This document shows positions 7,501 to 28,180 of a DNA stretch of 35,613 nt, piece after piece. The number at the start of each line of letters is the position of its first letter. Position 1 is the first letter of the stretch. The translations under genes and the position numbers were made by a program. Source of the DNA: Planctomycetota bacterium (GTDB lineage Bacteria > Planctomycetota > Brocadiia > SM23-32); assembly GCA_030628375.1 (NCBI GenBank), contig DAOVRD010000004.1, forward strand, positions 1 to 35,613, given 5' to 3'. The notes below the pieces were generated by a model that worked only from the letters and a program-made list of their open reading frames with translations, did no database searches and was not told where the DNA came from.

Positions 7501-9012
7501 TCACAGGCAACTGAAGTCGGTTCTTCCTTGCAGGCTCACGTAGCCGGCCGCCTCGGGCGCGGTCACGAACGCTTCCGGCAGCAGTTCATCGCACCCGGCC
7601 GCCGCGTCCGGCCCGTCCACGTAGCCGTCGGGGTAGCTGAGGAACTGCTCCTGAAGCATCTTCACGCCAGCGTTCGGATTCGTGGGGAACAGCCAGCACC
7701 CCCTCTCGAACTGCGCAGAAAGCTTTTCGATGCGCAGGTCTTTGGGGCGGGTGTGATTCACGTAACGGACCGGCAGGCGCACCCGCCGCTCGGCCTCCAG
7801 CATCCCCAGCAGCGGCCGGATCAGGGCATAGCCGCCGTTGGACTCGACGCCGATGAGGCGCGGCCGGAAGCGCCGGTTGAAGTCGAACAACATCCCCATC
7901 ATCTCCATCGGGGTCCCGCGCTCGATCCAGGCGTCCAGCACGTACCGCACGCCGCGGCCCCGGTCGGCGCCGACGGCCACGAGCGCCCGCGGACATCCCC
8001 TGGCGCCCTCGCTGACGGCGGGATCGAGGAACGCCACCACGTCGAGCTGGTGCAGATCAATCTCCTCGGCCCGGTAGGCCCCCATCCATTTGGCCTGAAA
8101 TGGCTTGGTGGGGTCTTCGGGTTCCAGCGCGTAGTTCCGCAGCCAGTTCCGCAGGCCGATGGTGGCCCGTATCCGCGACAGGGTGTCGTCGCTGAACCGC
8201 TCGGGCCAGACGCTGCGGCCCCCTTCGGTGACCTTCTGCAGGAACGCGCGGGCCAGCGGCCGGCGGGAGTCGTCCCGACTTTCGCTCAGACGATGGGCGC
8301 GCTCCATCATGCAGTCCGGCCCGAACATCGTGCCCAGCACCGTGAACACGAACCGGTCGGGCTCCAGCGCGGGCAGCACTTCGTCCATCAGCCAGTCCCA
8401 CAGGTTCTTCTCCCTTTCGGGGTTGCGGGCCAGCTCGGCGTCCTCCAGGTCGTCTCCCACGAATTCGGTGGGGCGGTGCTCGCCGTGCCGGCGTCCCCGC
8501 GGGCTCATCCCAATGCCGAACGCTTCGAACTTCACCGAGCCCCGATGCTCCGGCAGATTGACGGTCCATTCCGCCTGCGCGCCGCTCACCTCGATCTCGC
8601 CGTAGTCGCCGCGCACGCGGGAATTGTATTCGAGTTCCAGACGGACGAAGTCCATGTTCTGTGCGGCGAGCTTCTGCACCTGGCTGCCGTAGATGAAGTA
8701 GGGCGCCTCGCCGCGCAGCGCACGGTAGAGGGGCCGGGCCAGCGTGAGCAGCACGCTCTTGCCGGCGCCTCGGAAAGCGCAGACGAACGTGGGCATGCCC
8801 GGCTCGCCGGCGGCATCCGCCATGCGCTGGTGGAAGGCGGCGAACGGCGCGTCGAAGTAGTGCGGCAGGTAGGTCGTGCACCACTCCAGGAAGGGCCCCT
8901 CCATCCGCTCGCGCCGCGCGGCCTGGCCGGTGCGCGCGAAAGGCGTCGCCCGCTGCCCCATCAGCTCCAGCAGCTTCAGCCGGAGTTGTTCATGTTGTCT
9001 TGACCACTTCAT
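7501..9012 (-). CDS. Large terminase subunit (Mu gp28-like)
   Basis: A 503-aa protein with GAGGG eight bases before the ATG. The ATPase domain has Walker A AFRGAGKS (residues 79-86) and a Walker B-like FVGDDLED (184-191). The C-terminal nuclease domain shows the acidic residues expected of an RNase H fold: FLDPA (D330), IGVESNGG (E390) and DGPDA (about 467-470). It cuts and translocates phage DNA into the capsid with the small subunit. All motifs are present, so it is probably functional. It is separated from the upstream small gene by two GTAG palindromes (9056-9110). Confidence 0.92.
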   Translation of the reverse strand: MKWSRQHEQLRLKLLELMGQRATPFARTGQAARRERMEGPFLEWCTTYLPHYFDAPFAAFHQRMADAAGEPGMPTFVCAFRGAGKSVLLTLARPLYRALRGEAPYFIYGSQVQKLAAQNMDFVRLELEYNSRVRGDYGEIEVSGAQAEWTVNLPEHRGSVKFEAFGIGMSPRGRRHGEHRPTEFVGDDLEDAELARNPEREKNLWDWLMDEVLPALEPDRFVFTVLGTMFGPDCMMERAHRLSESRDDSRRPLARAFLQKVTEGGRSVWPERFSDDTLSRIRATIGLRNWLRNYALEPEDPTKPFQAKWMGAYRAEEIDLHQLDVVAFLDPAVSEGARGCPRALVAVGADRGRGVRYVLDAWIERGTPMEMMGMLFDFNRRFRPRLIGVESNGGYALIRPLLGMLEAERRVRLPVRYVNHTRPKDLRIEKLSAQFERGCWLFPTNPNAGVKMLQEQFLSYPDGYVDGPDAAAGCDELLPEAFVTAPEAAGYVSLQGRTDFSCL

Positions 9013-19661: not shown

Positions 19662-20747
19662 ATGGCCAAACTGAGGGGGCCCACGGAGCGCCGGGTCCTG
19701 AAGGACGATCGGCTCTTCACGCTGGACGTGTTCATCCTCGAGGGACTGATGACCGAGAAGTTCTCAAAGAAGAACGAAGTCATCTCACGGACCATCCAGA
19801 TCCGCGGGGACCAGGCGCTGGAGGACCTGCACCACACCATCTTCGACGCCTTTGACCGCGAAGAGGAGCACATGTACGAGTTCCAGGTCGGCGGTAAGAG
19901 GCCGATGGACCCGAAGGCCAGGCGTTACGTCCTTCCCATGGCACTAGAGGACCCGTTCTGGGACATGGAGCCTGCCGGTAGCGTGACGCACACATCAATC
20001 GGATCGCTCGGCCTGAAGGCGGGCGACGCCTTCGGCTACTGGTTCGACTTCGGCGACGACTGGTGGCACCGGATCAACGTGGTCAGCATCGAGGATGCGG
20101 CCCCACCCGGTTCGTACCCCAAGATCACAAAACGCGTGGGCGAGAGTCCGCCTCAATACCTGGACTGGGATGAGGAAGATGAGAATGGCGAAACCGCCCT
20201 TTCGGACAATGGCATCCCCGATCTCCTGGCCGACGTGCCGAACGCCTACGCCGCGCGGTGCACTGAACTCGTGGGCCTGACTGACGCCTTTTGCGATGCG
20301 CATCTGGACTCCGAGTACAGGGAGCTCTGCCGCGAGATGGCCGTCGCCATCTGCCAGGAAGGATCCCCGGTCCTCAAAGCGAGGAGCACAAGCTGGGCCG
20401 CCGGGATTGTGTGTGCCGTGGGATGGGTCAACTTCCTGACCGACCCCGACCAAACGCCGCACATGACCTCAGCCCAACTCGCGGAAGGGCTCGGCGTCTC
20501 CGTGGCGACGATGCAGGCCAAGGCCAGACTGATTCGCAAGATGCTGGACCTGATACAATTTGATCCGGACTGGTGTCTGCCCAGCAAGCTGGACGACAAC
20601 CCGCTGGTCTGGATGCTGGAGGTGAACGGATTCCTGATAGACATCCGCATGGTCCCCCGCGAGGCCCAGGTGGTTGCCTACGAGAAGGGGTTGATTCCTT
20701 ACGTCCCAGCCGATCGGCCAAAGGTGGTCAGAGAAGACAGTCAATAG
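19662..20747 (+). CDS. pRiA4b ORF-3-like / DUF6398 protein
   Basis: A 361-aa protein with AGGAAGGAAGG just before the ATG. Residues about 35-165 match the plasmid pRiA4b ORF-3-like fold: RTIQIRGDQALEDLHHTIFD, HMYEFQVGGKRP, GSLGLKAGDAFGYWFDFG and DDWWHRINVVSIE. Residues about 200-350 match the DUF6398-type helical domain: DAFCDAHLDSEYRELCREM, WAAGIVCAVGWVNFLTDPD and an HTH-like SAQLAEGLGVSVATMQAKAR. Such proteins are common on mobile DNA but their activity is unknown. The gene lies within the segment enclosed by 62-bp direct repeats, together with REP-like hairpins, which suggests it arrived as a cassette. Confidence 0.8.
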   Translation: MAKLRGPTERRVLKDDRLFTLDVFILEGLMTEKFSKKNEVISRTIQIRGDQALEDLHHTIFDAFDREEEHMYEFQVGGKRPMDPKARRYVLPMALEDPFWDMEPAGSVTHTSIGSLGLKAGDAFGYWFDFGDDWWHRINVVSIEDAAPPGSYPKITKRVGESPPQYLDWDEEDENGETALSDNGIPDLLADVPNAYAARCTELVGLTDAFCDAHLDSEYRELCREMAVAICQEGSPVLKARSTSWAAGIVCAVGWVNFLTDPDQTPHMTSAQLAEGLGVSVATMQAKARLIRKMLDLIQFDPDWCLPSKLDDNPLVWMLEVNGFLIDIRMVPREAQVVAYEKGLIPYVPADRPKVVREDSQ

Positions 20748-20872: not shown

Positions 20873-22444
20873 TCACGTCAGTGCCAACGTCTTGCCGGCG
20901 CGGTGGGCCAGATAGAGGACGCAGTTCTCGCAGCCGCCGGTGCGGCAGCAGTCCCTGTAGAGCTGATGGAGCCCCTGTTGACGGCGCGCGGAGTTGACGA
21001 CCTTCTGCGCCTCGCGCTCGTTCTCGAATATCGTCTGCTCCATGCGGCGAGTAACGGCGTTGGCCGGTCGGCGCGGCAGCCCCTCCCACAGGCCGCGCAG
21101 CTTGCCCACCAGAGCGCCCTCGTCCTCGCACTGGCCGTGTGCCAGCAGCATCGGCAGCAACACGTCCACCACGATGCTCGTGGCGCGCTCCTGGCCCACC
21201 AACGCCCGCGGCCGGCTCAACCGCTTGCCGGTGAAGGCGTAACGGTAAGACCAGTAAGGATGCTCCAGCTCCAGAAACGCGCCGACCAGGGCATCCCGCA
21301 CCGCGACATCGGCCCGCTGCCTGCCCTCCGGACGCGTCGTATTCACCAGCAGGAGGAAGTGATTGAACAGGCCGCTGTGAAGGTGCGCAGCGCACAGGCG
21401 GGCCAGCGCGGCGACGCGCCTCGCCGGGTAGTTGACGGGACGGGCCCCGGCGCGGTTCCAGTGGTCGGCCGACAGTCTGACCTGCGGCGTCGCATTGCCG
21501 AACGCCGCCCACCCCTCCTCCAGGCGCCCGCAGTAGGTCGTGGTCTCCGGGTCCGCATCGGCGGGCGGGCCCGCTTCCAGGAATCCCCCCACAGTGAAAA
21601 AGGCCGCTTCGAGCGCCGTGGATTTCTCCTCAACGCCGGCCTCCAGGGGCACCACCTTCCTCAGCGTCGCCATCGGCAGCACGCCGGCAAGCTGCAAGAA
21701 GGGCATTCGGTTGCTCTTGTAGCCCAGTGCCTCCGCGATCCGTTCGTAGAGAATCTGCTCGCGGTGATGATTCTCGAACAGCTCGGCCAGCGCCTCCGCA
21801 CGGCCCAGCAGCCGGTGGTCCCCGGCGGCGTCCAGCAGGCGACCCAGCCATTCCGGGCCGATCTCCCCGGAGCGGTAAGCACGGCCGCAGTATTTCCCCT
21901 CCACGACCGTCCACTGCTCCCCGGGGGCCCCGCCCTCCACGTCAATGATCTCCACGAGTTCTTCCAGGTCCCTGTCAACGGCCCTGCTGAGCGTGAGTTG
22001 CGGCACGGTCCGGCCGTTCTCGCTGGCGACAGTGGCCTCGTCCCTGTCGTTCCACATCACCACGTGCAGGCCGACGTCGTTGTACTCCGGCTGGCGGTGG
22101 TGGCCGTGGGAATACCAGGACGAGGCGAGGGTGTGCACTTCCACGTCGGCGACGACCCGGCCCGCGCCTTCCAGCAGGAACTCGGCGCGCATGAAATCGG
22201 GACCGCCCTCCACGTTCCACCATCCGGGCGAGAGCACTTCGAGACGACGCCCGTCGTCCGTAGTCAGCCCTTCACCGGTGAAGTGGCTGCCGAACCAGAC
22301 GCAGCGCACTATCTCCTCGCGCACGCTGCGGCCGGCCTGACCGTACGAAGCCCCCCTTTCGCCGACCTGCCCGGCGAACTCCGCCAGGAGTTGCCCGTAG
22401 AGGTCTGACAAAAGCACCGGTTGGTCTTTCTCTTCGCCGCCCAT
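20873..22444 (-). CDS. DUF2851 family protein
   Basis: A 523-aa protein. I chose the ATG at 22444 (AGGA seven bases upstream); an in-frame TTG five codons earlier is possible. Family features include LYGQLLAEFAGQVGERGASY near the start, the HFTGEGLTTDDGRRLEVLSP then GWWNVEGGPDFMRAEFLLEG region (residues about 55-95), VVADVEVHTLASSWYSHGHH, PEYNDVGLHVVMW and the C-terminal CCRTGGCENCVLY, whose three Cys could bind metal. The DVEVH and GPDF motifs recall PD-(D/E)xK nuclease-like cores, but activity is unproven. It lies 40 bp after the restriction-modification C-terminal half on the same strand, so the two may share a transcript. Confidence 0.85.
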   Translation of the reverse strand: MGGEEKDQPVLLSDLYGQLLAEFAGQVGERGASYGQAGRSVREEIVRCVWFGSHFTGEGLTTDDGRRLEVLSPGWWNVEGGPDFMRAEFLLEGAGRVVADVEVHTLASSWYSHGHHRQPEYNDVGLHVVMWNDRDEATVASENGRTVPQLTLSRAVDRDLEELVEIIDVEGGAPGEQWTVVEGKYCGRAYRSGEIGPEWLGRLLDAAGDHRLLGRAEALAELFENHHREQILYERIAEALGYKSNRMPFLQLAGVLPMATLRKVVPLEAGVEEKSTALEAAFFTVGGFLEAGPPADADPETTTYCGRLEEGWAAFGNATPQVRLSADHWNRAGARPVNYPARRVAALARLCAAHLHSGLFNHFLLLVNTTRPEGRQRADVAVRDALVGAFLELEHPYWSYRYAFTGKRLSRPRALVGQERATSIVVDVLLPMLLAHGQCEDEGALVGKLRGLWEGLPRRPANAVTRRMEQTIFENEREAQKVVNSARRQQGLHQLYRDCCRTGGCENCVLYLAHRAGKTLALT

Positions 22445-22484
22445 CCTGTGGTCCTGCAAAGCTTCTTTGCCCGCAGCCCTGTGC

Positions 22485-23828
22485 TTATTGGATCGGCCAA
22501 CCGCCGTGAGCGTTTATGACTTCATCTATGTCCGCCATCAGGCGGATGGTCTCGTTGAGCGCGACGACGACATTCTGGTAATGGTTCAGCTCATCAATGT
22601 CGAGCCGGCGCTGCCGGCGGTCCTTGAGCCATTTCTCGCACACCTGGTATCCACCGACGTGGAAGTCCCAGACTTCAGGCGGCACGCCGTCGAAGTACTG
22701 CTCCTTGTTCATATAGACCCGGCCCCGTTCGAGCTTCTCATTGACACCGGGCGCCTTGCTGCCGGGCGCGAGGTATATGGGATATCGCTTTGCGACCTGA
22801 TTGTCGCCGGGGACGGGGAAGCTGGTGATGTGTTCGTGGACCTTCGCCGATTCGAGCAGATGGAGGCCAACGAGTTCCGCGCCGAGCCGGCACAGCGCGC
22901 GGAACAGCGCGACGTCCGAGGTAACGGGCACGCGGGGGAAGTCGCTCTTGAGGAACTCGGCGTACCGCTGCCGGTAGCTCGGGCAATAGAAGACCGCATA
23001 TATGTAATCGAACACATCCTGCGGCCCGAACGTGTCCTGCAGGTCGCCGGCGCCATCAGCAACAAAGTCCATGCGGAGCCGCCGATCCAGCTCCGACACG
23101 AAGTCATGGCTCAAGTTGGACAGCGCCCCGGACTTCCCGCGAGGCCAAGGTGTTGCTGCCAAACGGTCGTCCTTGCCGCCCCTCCGGAGATAAAGGTACT
23201 GTGGGCAGATGGTGTTGATGTCGTAGGCCGCCATGCATTTGTGCCCCGCAATCGTCCGCGTACAGAATCCATCCCAGTGCTCACGCGTCTGCCTCGTCAC
23301 GATAAGCCCCAGATTCTCGCCTTCGAGGAAATTGGGCATGACCTCGGGGCGTGGCATGCAGATGAACCCGCGTGTGCGCGCGGTGTAGTAGGCGAAGCGC
23401 ACGTCAAACGGCCGGTACAAAACGCGCACTACCAGCTCCCGATCCGGACCCGTTGACCGCACGTCTTGCTGCGCAAGGTGCACCTTCCAATCGCGAACGT
23501 CTGGGCCGAGGGAATACTTCGCACGGGCTTCTTCAGCTTCAAGGCGGCCGAAATCCTGGACGCGCTTCCAGAGTTCCTCCCGCGTCCAGCCTATGGTCAG
23601 CCTATCGCGGGCCGTTACAATGCCAACGCTATGGACCGGCATGGCGTCCGTGATCTTCCAGCCCCGCATGTATTCCGCTTCCAGGGCGTAGTCTCGCGGG
23701 ACGAAGAGGTACAGGGGCTCGCGGGGCTTAATGTGCTGCCAGTCGGTGCTGTTAATGTGCGAGCGCTTCAGGGCCTCGTACTTCGCCTTGCGCAAGCCGT
23801 AAAGGTCGCTGTGATAGACGCGGCTCAT
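22485..23828 (-). CDS. Type ISP-like restriction-modification enzyme, C-terminal half
   Basis: A 447-aa protein starting MSRVYHSDLYGLRKAKYEAL, which in related single-chain enzymes follows the methyltransferase domain directly. AAGGA stands six bases before the ATG, and an in-frame TAA lies three codons upstream, so it is now a separate ORF. It should contain the target-recognition part: FYLFVP-like PLYLFVPRDY, VVRVLYRPFDVRFAYYT, GLIVTRQTREHWDGF, and PQDVFDYIYAVFYCPSYRQR. Together with the upstream ORF it makes about 1100 aa, a usual length. It may associate with the N-terminal half or be inactive. Confidence 0.8.
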   Translation of the reverse strand: MSRVYHSDLYGLRKAKYEALKRSHINSTDWQHIKPREPLYLFVPRDYALEAEYMRGWKITDAMPVHSVGIVTARDRLTIGWTREELWKRVQDFGRLEAEEARAKYSLGPDVRDWKVHLAQQDVRSTGPDRELVVRVLYRPFDVRFAYYTARTRGFICMPRPEVMPNFLEGENLGLIVTRQTREHWDGFCTRTIAGHKCMAAYDINTICPQYLYLRRGGKDDRLAATPWPRGKSGALSNLSHDFVSELDRRLRMDFVADGAGDLQDTFGPQDVFDYIYAVFYCPSYRQRYAEFLKSDFPRVPVTSDVALFRALCRLGAELVGLHLLESAKVHEHITSFPVPGDNQVAKRYPIYLAPGSKAPGVNEKLERGRVYMNKEQYFDGVPPEVWDFHVGGYQVCEKWLKDRRQRRLDIDELNHYQNVVVALNETIRLMADIDEVINAHGGWPIQ

Positions 23829-23890
23829 GCCTGTTCCTTACGAAGACTCCAGGAAAACCTCACGGGAACGCGCGCTCCCCCCTCAGGAAC

Positions 23891-23968
23891 CTAATCTTTT
23901 GCGTTGTGAAAGACGTGGTCTCCCGACTCGTCAACGTACAGCCTATAGCGCCCCTTCACTTGTCGCAT
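23891..23968 (-). pseudogene. DUF3800 N-terminal fragment (25 codons)
   Basis: Between the two restriction-enzyme halves the minus strand reads MRQVKGRYRLYVDESGDHVF then HNAKD and a TAG stop. YRLYVDESGDH is the hallmark N-terminal strand and catalytic-type DESGD motif of DUF3800 proteins, which are often linked to phage and defence genes. GGAGG lies nine bases before an in-frame GTG (23959), giving a start MKGRYRLYV typical of the family. Nothing after the stop resembles the rest of DUF3800 (usually about 200-250 aa). This is most simply the scar of an inserted and later deleted gene. Confidence 0.7.
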
Positions 23969-23978
23969 CCTCCGGAGC

Positions 23979-25940
23979 CTACGGCAGCTTGACCATCAGG
24001 CAGATTGCCACCCCCTGTTGGATGTCGAAGACGTTCTGGTCCTTCGACCCGTCGGGGCACATTTCCCGCTTCTTCGCGCTGCCGTGCAGATCCACTATAT
24101 AGATTTCGTCGAAGGTCTCCATCAGGCTCTGACGCATGCCGCGGAACGTGGGATTATCCAGGTAACCGTGATTGGTGATGAAAGCGAGGATGCCGGCGCC
24201 GGTGTGGTCTATGCGCGACTGCGCCCAGCGGATGAACTTGACGTAATCGTCCTGGAGCCACTTCGGGTTGCGCTCCCTCAGAGGCCCTCCGTCCACCTCG
24301 TAGTAGCTCTGCCGCCTGGCCCCGCCGGCCAGCGGATACCGTTTCTTGAGCAGGTTGTCGATCCAAGCCCCCTTGTTGGCTGAATGCCCGCTGTAGGGTG
24401 GATTTCCCAGCACGACCATAATCGGCAGGTCGCGTTTGATCTCGGCGGCGGCGTTCGCCTCATCGCTGATGATCCTGAAAGGCCCCGGCAGGGTCTGCGA
24501 AATGCCCTCTGGTTTCGACAGCGTGTTCGTGAGATAGATGCCCAGCCGCTCGTCGCCGGAGAAATCGTAGGCCCACTCCTTGCGCTCTTCTTCGGGCAGG
24601 TCCATGGCGGCAAGCTGCATGCCCAGCTTGAGATGCGCCACGGCGTAGGGAGCCACGAGCAACTCGAAACCGAAGATGCGCGGCAGCAGGTGCTTGCGCA
24701 CATAGCCTGACCAGAGCCCAGCGTTGTTGTGCTCCCGAAACCACTCGCGGATATGGTCCACCACAGCATAAAGGAACGTGCCGGTGCCGCAGGCGGGGTC
24801 CAGGACCAGAAGCCGGTGGCACTGGCCTTTGACCTTCTGTCCCTCCTCCATGCGTTCGTAATCAATAAGGGCACTGTCGGCCAACCCGAGCGGCATGCCG
24901 AACTTGTCCTTCAGCAGCCAGTCCACCGACCGCACGAGGTAGGAGACCACCGGCTCGGGGGTGTAGTAGACGCCGCGTGCCTCGCGCAGCTTCCGGTCGT
25001 AGGTGGCCAAGAATGTCTCGTAGAAGTGGAAGACCGGGTCCTTACGGCGCGTCGCCGTGCCGAACTCGGCCAGAATGCCATCCATGTCGGCGGCATGGAG
25101 CACCTGTACCAGGTCCTCTACGAACGGCGCATAAGGCTCTTCGCCAAAGTCCACGCCTGTAATGACGTCGAAGAGCTTGCGCAGGAAGGGATTAGTCTTG
25201 GGTATCTCGGCGGCCGCCGCCTGTCGGGTGAACGGGCCCCCGGGGTGGTTGCAGCGCGCGGCAAAGAGGCCATAGGTGATGGTCTGGGCATACATGTCTG
25301 CGAACTGAGCCGTCTTTTCGGGCCGCTCCAGGTCGGGGATGAGCACCCGGGCGAAACCCTTGCGCAGGTCGCTAAGGATGTGCGAGGGGTTGTGCGTCTC
25401 GAAGACCTGGACGATAACGTCGCGGATCATGTGCGTGATGCGCGCCATGCGCTCGGCGAGCGTCTTTGGCGACGAGATCGCGATAGCTTCATGGGCCAAG
25501 AAGTCGCCAAGGAGTCCTTCAACCGCGCTTGGGCCGTCCTTGTCCAACCTGAAGGCGCCGTCGTTGCCGACCCGGCCCAGTCGCGCAGTGGCCCTCAACT
25601 CGCCATCCACATACCAGCGGAACTCCGCATAATCGGTCAACACCAGATTCTCAAGCGAGCGGCGGTAGCGACGCAGTTGCTCGTCCTCTTCCCACTTGTC
25701 CAGCGACTGGCCAACGTCCTTGCACTCAACATAGCCCACCGTCACAGGGCCGGGCTTGCGGCTGACGACAAAGTCCGGCGCACCACACTCGACGCGCTTT
25801 GGCTCGTTGGTAGCGGTGAGTGCGGGCGCCAGGGCCTCGAGCAGTTCCTTCAGCGCCGGCCGGTGCGTGTGCTCCGTGGCATCGGCCCGCTTGAGGGCGT
25901 CCCCCACCTGCTTGATGTACTCACGGAATGGCTGGGCCAT
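23979..25940 (-). CDS. Type ISP-like restriction-modification enzyme, nuclease/methylase half
   Basis: A 653-aa protein. An N-terminal PD-(D/E)xK nuclease is seen as GAPDFVV (Asp56) and GYVECKDVG (Glu72, Lys74). After a helical linker comes an N6-adenine methyltransferase with motif I VLDPACGTGTFL (379-390) and motif IV GNPPYSG (512-518), plus GVYYTPEPVVSYLVRSVD (323-340) typical of this family. It ends FDIQQGVAICLMVKLP and a TAG, where intact relatives continue within a few residues to a VYHSDL-type segment; that part is the next ORF. No helicase domain is seen, so it fits the Eco57I-like/type ISP-related short form. It would methylate and cut DNA at a specific site if the halves still assemble. 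Confidence 0.85.
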   Translation of the reverse strand: MAQPFREYIKQVGDALKRADATEHTHRPALKELLEALAPALTATNEPKRVECGAPDFVVSRKPGPVTVGYVECKDVGQSLDKWEEDEQLRRYRRSLENLVLTDYAEFRWYVDGELRATARLGRVGNDGAFRLDKDGPSAVEGLLGDFLAHEAIAISSPKTLAERMARITHMIRDVIVQVFETHNPSHILSDLRKGFARVLIPDLERPEKTAQFADMYAQTITYGLFAARCNHPGGPFTRQAAAAEIPKTNPFLRKLFDVITGVDFGEEPYAPFVEDLVQVLHAADMDGILAEFGTATRRKDPVFHFYETFLATYDRKLREARGVYYTPEPVVSYLVRSVDWLLKDKFGMPLGLADSALIDYERMEEGQKVKGQCHRLLVLDPACGTGTFLYAVVDHIREWFREHNNAGLWSGYVRKHLLPRIFGFELLVAPYAVAHLKLGMQLAAMDLPEEERKEWAYDFSGDERLGIYLTNTLSKPEGISQTLPGPFRIISDEANAAAEIKRDLPIMVVLGNPPYSGHSANKGAWIDNLLKKRYPLAGGARRQSYYEVDGGPLRERNPKWLQDDYVKFIRWAQSRIDHTGAGILAFITNHGYLDNPTFRGMRQSLMETFDEIYIVDLHGSAKKREMCPDGSKDQNVFDIQQGVAICLMVKLP

Positions 25941-26986: not shown

Positions 26987-27022
26987 AGGACAGAAGTGAG
27001 GACATACGAAAGGACGCATCCG
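26987..27022. repeat. Second cluster of 12-bp repeats over the fic start codon
   Basis: AGGACAGAAGTG, AGGACATACGAA and AGGACGCATCCG follow each other at 12-bp steps. AGGACATACGAA differs from the first unit upstream by one base. Part of this cluster codes RTYERTHP, which is common at Fic N-termini, so coding constraint may explain some of the similarity. Confidence 0.55.
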
Positions 27023-28180
27023 TGGCTGACATTCTCGGTGGATTTGTCTCACGCTCCCGCCGCCCTGTGGGTTATGCTGGGAGAATGCCAGTCCAAGTGC
27101 GAACACATTGCAGGCGCTCCCCTACGGCCTGAGACGGCAGAGAGCCTACACCGGTTGTTCCTGGCTAAGGGCGCCTTGGCTACCACCGCTATAGAAGGGA
27201 ACACACTGACCGAGGAACAGGTCATCGAACACTTGGAAGGGAAGCTCAAACTGCCTCCCTCCCAGGAGTACCTGGCGCAGGAAATAGACAACATCGTCAC
27301 GGCATGCAATGGCATCTTTGAGAAGGTGCGCACGGGGCGGGCGTCGCCCTTGACGGTCGAGAGCATAAAAGAGCTGAACCGTACGGTGTTGGATAAGTTG
27401 GACGTGGCAGAAGATGTTATTCCCGGCCAGGTTCGCACTCACCGCGTGACGGTCGCACGGTACCGCGCCGTCCCACCGGAAGACTGCGAGTTTCTGCTGG
27501 GTCGCTTCTGTGACTGGCTGAACGGCCTTTCAGCTACGGTTCCTGCAGGCATGTCAATAGCTTACGGAATACTCAGGGCCGTGCTTGGACATCTCTACTT
27601 GGCGTGGATCCACCCGTTCGGCGACGGGAACGGCAGGACGGCGAGATTAGTGGAGTTCCAGACCCTGGTCTCCGCAGGCGTTCCTACTCCGGCCGCGCAC
27701 CTGTTGAGCAATCATTACAACCAGACCCGAAGTGAGTACTACCGTCAGCTCGACACAGCAACACGGTCCGGCGGGGAGGTGGTACGGTTTCTTGTGTACG
27801 CGGTGACAGGCCTTTTGGACGGTCTCCGCTCACAGCTTGACCAAATCCGCCAACAAGAGTGGGATGTGGTGTGGCGCAATTACGTGCACGAGCGTTTCGG
27901 TGACAGGACGACGCCGAGTCAAGTCCGCCGTAGGCATCTTGTCCTCGACCTGTCACGGCAGGCTGGTTGGGTTCCCATCTCTGACTTGGGACAGATCAGC
28001 ACCCGTATTGCCAGGGCATATGCAACCAAGACGAGGAAAACGCTAATGCGCGATATCAATGCGCTTGAAGAGATGGGACTGGTTGCAAGAGACGGGCGTC
28101 GAGTCCGAGCCCGGAAAGACATCATCCGGGCTTTCCTGCCTGCCAAGGCCGCCACAGAGCAGGTCCCCCAGGAGGCCTGA
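26996..28180 (+). CDS. Fic family protein with C-terminal winged helix
   Basis: A 394-aa protein with a GTG start and GAGG six bases upstream. It begins MRTYERTHPWLTF, as many Fic proteins do. The active-site loop HPFGDGNGRT (206-215) is complete, so AMP or another nucleotide-derived group could be transferred to a target protein. An N-terminal inhibitory helix motif TTAIEGN (residues 63-69) is also present, so this is a class II, self-inhibited Fic. Residues about 315-385 (RRHLVLDLSRQAGWVPISDL then RKTLMRDINALEEMGLV) form a winged helix-turn-helix, which suggests DNA binding and perhaps self-regulation through the 12-bp repeats upstream. No antitoxin-like gene is adjacent. Confidence 0.92.
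   Translation: MRTYERTHPWLTFSVDLSHAPAALWVMLGECQSKCEHIAGAPLRPETAESLHRLFLAKGALATTAIEGNTLTEEQVIEHLEGKLKLPPSQEYLAQEIDNIVTACNGIFEKVRTGRASPLTVESIKELNRTVLDKLDVAEDVIPGQVRTHRVTVARYRAVPPEDCEFLLGRFCDWLNGLSATVPAGMSIAYGILRAVLGHLYLAWIHPFGDGNGRTARLVEFQTLVSAGVPTPAAHLLSNHYNQTRSEYYRQLDTATRSGGEVVRFLVYAVTGLLDGLRSQLDQIRQQEWDVVWRNYVHERFGDRTTPSQVRRRHLVLDLSRQAGWVPISDLGQISTRIARAYATKTRKTLMRDINALEEMGLVARDGRRVRARKDIIRAFLPAKAATEQVPQEA

Follow-up and report, generated by a model that had tools for sequence, protein, structure and literature searches.

The window analysed here is a whole stretch of 35,613 nucleotides from a Planctomycetota bacterium (GCA_030628375.1, contig DAOVRD010000004.1). It contains a restriction-modification enzyme divided over two genes, with a short piece resembling the start of a DUF3800 gene between them. 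An initial annotation, based on the letters of the sequence, offered two explanations: a DUF3800 gene was inserted into the linker and mostly deleted, leaving a two-subunit enzyme, or the system is dead. Two questions follow from this locus. Do the halves still constitute a working enzyme, and was it DUF3800 that divided it?

Organisation of the locus

The nuclease and methyltransferase (RM) half, which corresponds to the N-terminal part, ends with GVAICLMVKLP-stop. The specificity (S) half, corresponding to the C-terminal part, begins with MSRVYHSDLYGLR. Both are intact, neighbouring open reading frames on one strand (Table 1). The spacer between them is 150 bp from stop to start, or 153 bp if the first stop is counted. 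The annotation had described two separate reading frames about 150 bp apart, the second with its own ribosome site, and both points agree with the present data: the ribosome-site-like AAGGA lies 6 nt upstream of the ATG of the S half. The two halves share one reading frame, and five stops in all are present between them, so that no single-base error joins the halves. This speaks against the sequencing error that the annotation had named as a threat to its interpretation.

Table 1. Positions of the features of the split enzyme in the window.
Feature	Position	Strand	Evidence
RM half, nuclease (D56, E72, K74) and N6-adenine methyltransferase, 653 aa	23979..25940	-	N6_Mtase 5e-07; PADLOC Type IIG PDLC03610 9.6e-183; 104/107 conserved columns; AlphaFold pLDDT 83.8
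GGAGG, possible ribosome site of the DUF3800 remnant (9 nt before GTG 23959)	23969..23973	-	sequence
DUF3800 N-terminal remnant, 25 codons from ATG or 22 from GTG 23959	23891..23968	-	DUF3800 N-terminus HMM 37 bits, shuffles <=7.3; ends TAG 23891-23893
Rest of spacer, no recognisable coding content, no repeats	23829..23890	-	unique in assembly; no Rfam match
AAGGA, possible ribosome site of the S half	23835..23839	-	sequence
S half, Type_ISP_C specificity domain, 447 aa, own ATG	22485..23828	-	PF18135 4.9e-87, profile 2-341/342; PDLC03610 659-1075; 46/47 conserved columns; AlphaFold pLDDT 92.1, pTM 0.90; DrdV 7lo5 1.4e-18

Neither direct repeats nor target-site duplications are seen around the spacer, no RNA motif of Rfam matches in the region, and a second C half was not found in the genome. 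A DUF2851 gene (20873-22459, minus strand) begins 26 bp past the S half and possibly belongs to the same transcription unit. On the plus strand, the flanking region encodes a protein with PRiA4_ORF3 and DUF6398 (19662-20747) and a Fic-domain protein (26996-28180).

Class of the enzyme

Both halves match one 1096-aa Type IIG profile of PADLOC (PDLC03610). The best stretch of the RM half corresponds to 3-495 of the profile, and a second stretch passes on its own. The RM half carries the N6 methyltransferase, and the S half is covered over its full length by Type_ISP_C (PF18135). No helicase or translocase family was found in either half. Sequence matches in PDB are DrdV (7lo5), LlaGI and LlaBIII, the last matching in its methyltransferase part only, from residue 842 on.

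The combination of a nuclease, a gamma N6-adenine methyltransferase and a specificity domain with no helicase is that of PDLC03610-like Type IIG enzymes, in which the specificity part is either the C-terminus or a separate subunit; here two adjacent genes fit one profile. With Type ISP enzymes the locus shares the Type_ISP_C domain, but neither the translocase between nuclease and methyltransferase nor the single polypeptide. With Type IIB enzymes (BcgI and BsaXI) it shares separate RM and S genes, but not the S subunit with two recognition domains: the S half is one Type_ISP_C match, and it aligns with DrdV's one specificity region. Because no helicase is present and both halves fall on one Type IIG profile, the enzyme is, judged by its sequence, a helicase-less Type IIG of the DrdV/Type_ISP_C kind. 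The initial annotation had proposed alignment to intact type ISP/Eco57I-like proteins; a true Type ISP enzyme is ruled out on the same grounds.

Integrity of the two halves

The annotation had considered both halves to be long, intact frames, and their conserved residues point the same way. Nearly all positions strongly conserved among 150 single-chain relatives are retained in both halves (Table 1), and the medians of these 150 fused enzymes are the same as the values of the window halves within a percent. The invariant positions include the three nuclease residues, the SAM motif and NPPY. The nearest relatives are 66%/51% identical. AlphaFold predicts the S half with high confidence even on its own, with a fold match to DrdV, LlaGI and LlaBIII in their specificity parts. 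The pTM predicted for the RM half is 0.82.

The DUF3800 remnant

The small reading frame in the spacer reads (MRQV)KGRYRLYVDESGDHVFHNAKD-stop. An HMM built from seven other DUF3800 N-termini matches exactly this remnant with 37.0 bits (E 9e-11); the next best match in the window scores 5.5 and the best among 20 shuffled windows 7.3. The N-terminal motif of DUF3800 (PF12686), Y-x-Y/F-[VIL]-DESGD, is present. When the peptide is compared with 392 genomes of the phylum (window excluded), its two best matches are the N-terminus of DUF3800-type proteins, one of which is confirmed as PF12686. The full domain is absent: the remnant stops after 25 codons, no PF12686 match exists in the genome, and no DUF3800 C-terminus is seen by eye in the three frames after codon 25. 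No plasmid match was found for the peptide. These matches indicate that the remnant is a real DUF3800 start, as the initial annotation proposed. The ribosome site proposed for it is plausible for one start codon, as GGAGG is well placed before the GTG and abuts the ATG. The remnant is probably dead cargo without function.

Single-chain and split relatives

At the exact point of the split, single-chain relatives have only a short linker, with a junction such as IFVKEPGKNGPAKVHHAELWG, as expected from the statement in the annotation that the two segments are a few residues apart in such enzymes. The closest split relative (G010), 66% identical in the RM half, is cut at the same point. Its RM half ends with MIKLPDEGEKTDD-stop, and this end overlaps the start codon (ATG) of an antitoxin-like ORF with no Pfam match. 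This ORF is followed in the slot (L031 593-2113) by a very short ORF, 24-nt tandem repeats, a Y1 transposase and 90-nt repeats. By eye, the very short ORF is possibly a truncated toxin start. The S half starts with MTADVYHADLWG and runs off the contig.

Twelve further split loci were found, 11 cyanobacterial and one from Methylococcales. Together with G010, they have the breakpoint in common and differ in cargo, which across the 12 is HicAB, DUF433/DUF5615, PIN, DUF559 or an empty spacer. Among the cyanobacterial slots, L181 contains HicB-like ORFs, L182 HicB/HicA, L183 a non-coding spacer of ~180 bp, L184 DUF2281/DUF433/HicB-like/HicA, L185 DUF4926/PIN and two small ORFs, and L186 DUF6883/DUF4926/antitoxin-like/PIN; L182 and L184 are from single-contig genomes. 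The slot of L314 carries HicAB. The labels HicB-like and antitoxin-like were assigned by eye. L186 has another specificity half downstream (7784-8032, numbered on the RM-half strand), which carries an internal deletion and adjoins a DUF433/DUF5615-like pair similar to what L184 has in its linker. The stop codon of the RM half and the following ATG overlap (ATGA) in several cyanobacterial relatives, as in a coupling layout.

In Argonema antarcticum (L103), the slot contains HicB, a HicA fragment, DUF433, DUF5615, a HicB-like ORF and HicA. Here the 36-nt end of the RM gene (7804-7839) is repeated with 94% identity before the DUF433 gene (8281-8316). This copy suggests that cassettes were inserted one after another through recombination at the junction, and could be their footprint. 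In the family of Argonema, a split copy is present in 5 of the 5 genomes with a second half, Argonema included. In the Methylococcales locus (L104 7270-9147), a DUF559 nuclease, which has ctctccctgagggagagg repeats on either side, forms an in-frame fusion with the S half.

The parsed loci of Chloroflexota, Acidobacteriota and IMG/VR showed no linker split; the remaining Chloroflexota matches were judged by open-frame length only. L087 is flagged by a naive split test, but its break looks to be inside the C half and not at the linker. Repeat-like in-frame insertions (for example, PLLPSPFGRGAGGE) are present in the same linker of the fused enzymes L096, L097, L113 and L075, indicating that the linker tolerates insertions without splitting too.

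The annotation had proposed a search for genomes with DUF3800 at the same place, and regarded two-ORF relatives lacking DUF3800-like sequence as evidence against its view. No intact DUF3800 lies between the halves in any parsed locus, and the DUF3800 matches of the phylum are not adjacent to close enzyme matches, in two search samples that overlap and are not identical. The split relatives carry antitoxin-like and transposase genes, HicAB, DUF433/DUF5615, PIN, DUF559 or an empty spacer, but not DUF3800. This counts in part against the annotation, and DUF3800 is rejected as a general cause of splitting.

Age of the split and selection

In a quick tree of 110 RM halves, at least 8 changes are required to explain the ten split rows, implying that splitting occurred repeatedly. 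The window falls in a group with G010 and G080 (support 83). Since G080, the sister of G010, is single-chain, the split of the window need not be old, and one old split common to the window and G010 is unsupported.

Omega was obtained by simple Nei-Gojobori counts, with some high dS values. For the RM and S halves, respectively, it is 0.068 and 0.109 in the split pair L312/L313, 0.030 and 0.130 in L313/L314, and 0.045 and 0.148 in L312/L314. The corresponding ranges of single-chain pairs are 0.05-0.39 and 0.09-0.39, and pairs with exchanged specificity halves have higher C-half omega, up to 0.41. Both halves are under purifying selection in these three cyanobacterial split pairs, as in fused pairs. 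This indicates that split enzymes are kept as working enzymes, at least in those cyanobacteria, and the halves in the window are probably kept likewise.

The RM halves of L103/L315, L168/L169 and L163/L164 are 98-99% identical, and their specificity halves only 60-74%, in split and fused enzymes alike (fused L168/L169: N 98.9%, C 74.3%). This pattern corresponds to frequent exchange of target specificity. As single-chain enzymes show it too, such exchange is rejected as the reason for the split and cannot be offered as its advantage.

Origin and state of the split

We consider it reasonably likely that the window encodes a working RM and S pair of a split helicase-less Type IIG enzyme, organised like BcgI and BsaXI, in which the linker recurrently takes up small genes and the piece of DUF3800 is dead cargo. 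This reading is supported by the layout, by the conserved residues that both halves retain, by the recurrent splitting of relatives at the same place and by the purifying selection on cyanobacterial split enzymes, and the two proteins of the window probably assemble and work. A break at the linker would leave both domains whole, with the S half gaining a start codon. Small genes landing there would thus be likely to survive, while the enzyme would not outlast a break at any other place. Cargo could then build up and be lost again, and the window could be considered as an almost emptied slot, in which the first 25 codons of DUF3800 are left as a stub and the remainder is gone.

With no intact DUF3800 found in any slot, it is plausible but unproven that DUF3800 rather than an earlier cargo made the split in the window; DUF3800 could also have come in after a different split. 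The insertion and deletion proposed in the initial annotation accordingly stand in part: the DUF3800 start is real, and the order of events is presumed. Its suggestion that the split enzyme may still work fares better than its alternative of a dead system, given the conserved residues and the selection on comparable split enzymes.

A further step, which we regard as rather doubtful, is that cargo and enzyme are functionally coupled. The RM/S junction would then be a recurrent cargo slot in which small genes, toxin-antitoxin and others, are inserted, exchanged and lost while the split enzyme works, and the window an emptied slot with a DUF3800 stub. Coupling might consist of mutual stabilisation, or of the cargo serving as a back-up upon failure of the enzyme, as PrrC does for Type I.

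It is also unlikely that the system was killed recently, DUF3800 or its carrier element having broken the gene, so that the enzyme no longer assembles and the halves have not yet decayed. The DUF3800 gene is itself truncated, and the split may be young, as the neighbouring G080 enzyme is fused. Against this, both frames are intact over 1100 codons with their conserved residues, purifying selection acts on split enzymes elsewhere, and the break lies exactly at the domain linker, with an ATG and a ribosome-site-like sequence belonging to the S half, an arrangement shared by 13 other loci.

An assembly artefact, in which a chimeric join or collapsed strain variants made the 153-bp spacer, is very unlikely. 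The source is a metagenome assembly in 412 contigs, with a completeness of 85.8% and a contamination of 4.1%, but the spacer DNA has no second copy in it, the breakpoint coincides with those of independent genomes, single-contig ones included, and one error cannot yield five in-frame stops and a DUF3800 start. Least probable of all is that the short ORF was retained as a leader or coupling peptide setting translation of the S half: its GTG spacing and the ATGA overlaps of cyanobacterial relatives would fit, but it ends ~60 bp before the start of the S half, which has its own ribosome-site-like sequence, and the spacer of L183 is non-coding.

Comparison with known systems

In a limited search of open-access papers, no report was found on repeated splitting of this Type IIG family with toxin-antitoxin cargo, nor any paper covering both DUF3800 and type ISP. 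The loci described here show that a single-chain Type IIG enzyme has repeatedly been turned into an RM and S pair in nature, the kind of step that is assumed in models linking Type I, IIB and IIG. They mark a split point expected to work in the laboratory. With toxin-antitoxin-type genes located within the transcription unit of a single restriction enzyme, any coupling of the two is also directly testable.

The closest known enzymes are Type IIG with Type_ISP_C (PDLC03610), of which DrdV (7LO5/7LVV) is the structural relative. The order of nuclease, gamma methyltransferase and specificity domain is the same and the folds match, but the known members are single chains, whereas RM and S are separate genes in the window. 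Specificity modules of Type IIG enzymes are either separate subunits or the C-terminus (PMC4081073). LlaGI and LlaBIII of Type ISP have homologous methyltransferase and specificity domains; unlike them, the window enzyme has no translocase domain and is not a single polypeptide.

Separate RM and S subunits are found in BcgI (PMC3874165) and in BsaXI, whose activity is reconstituted by mixing both (PMC9159934). Their S subunits have two recognition domains in a complex of 2RM:1S, while the S half in the window has one Type_ISP_C domain, for which 1:1 would be the simplest guess. The gene of the PrrC toxin lies within the Type I operon of EcoprrI (PMC3874165), much as toxin-antitoxin-type genes lie within restriction-modification operons in the split relatives. 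The hsd subunits of EcoprrI are separate anyway, whereas the gene divided here normally encodes a single chain, and the coupling of cargo and enzyme is putative.
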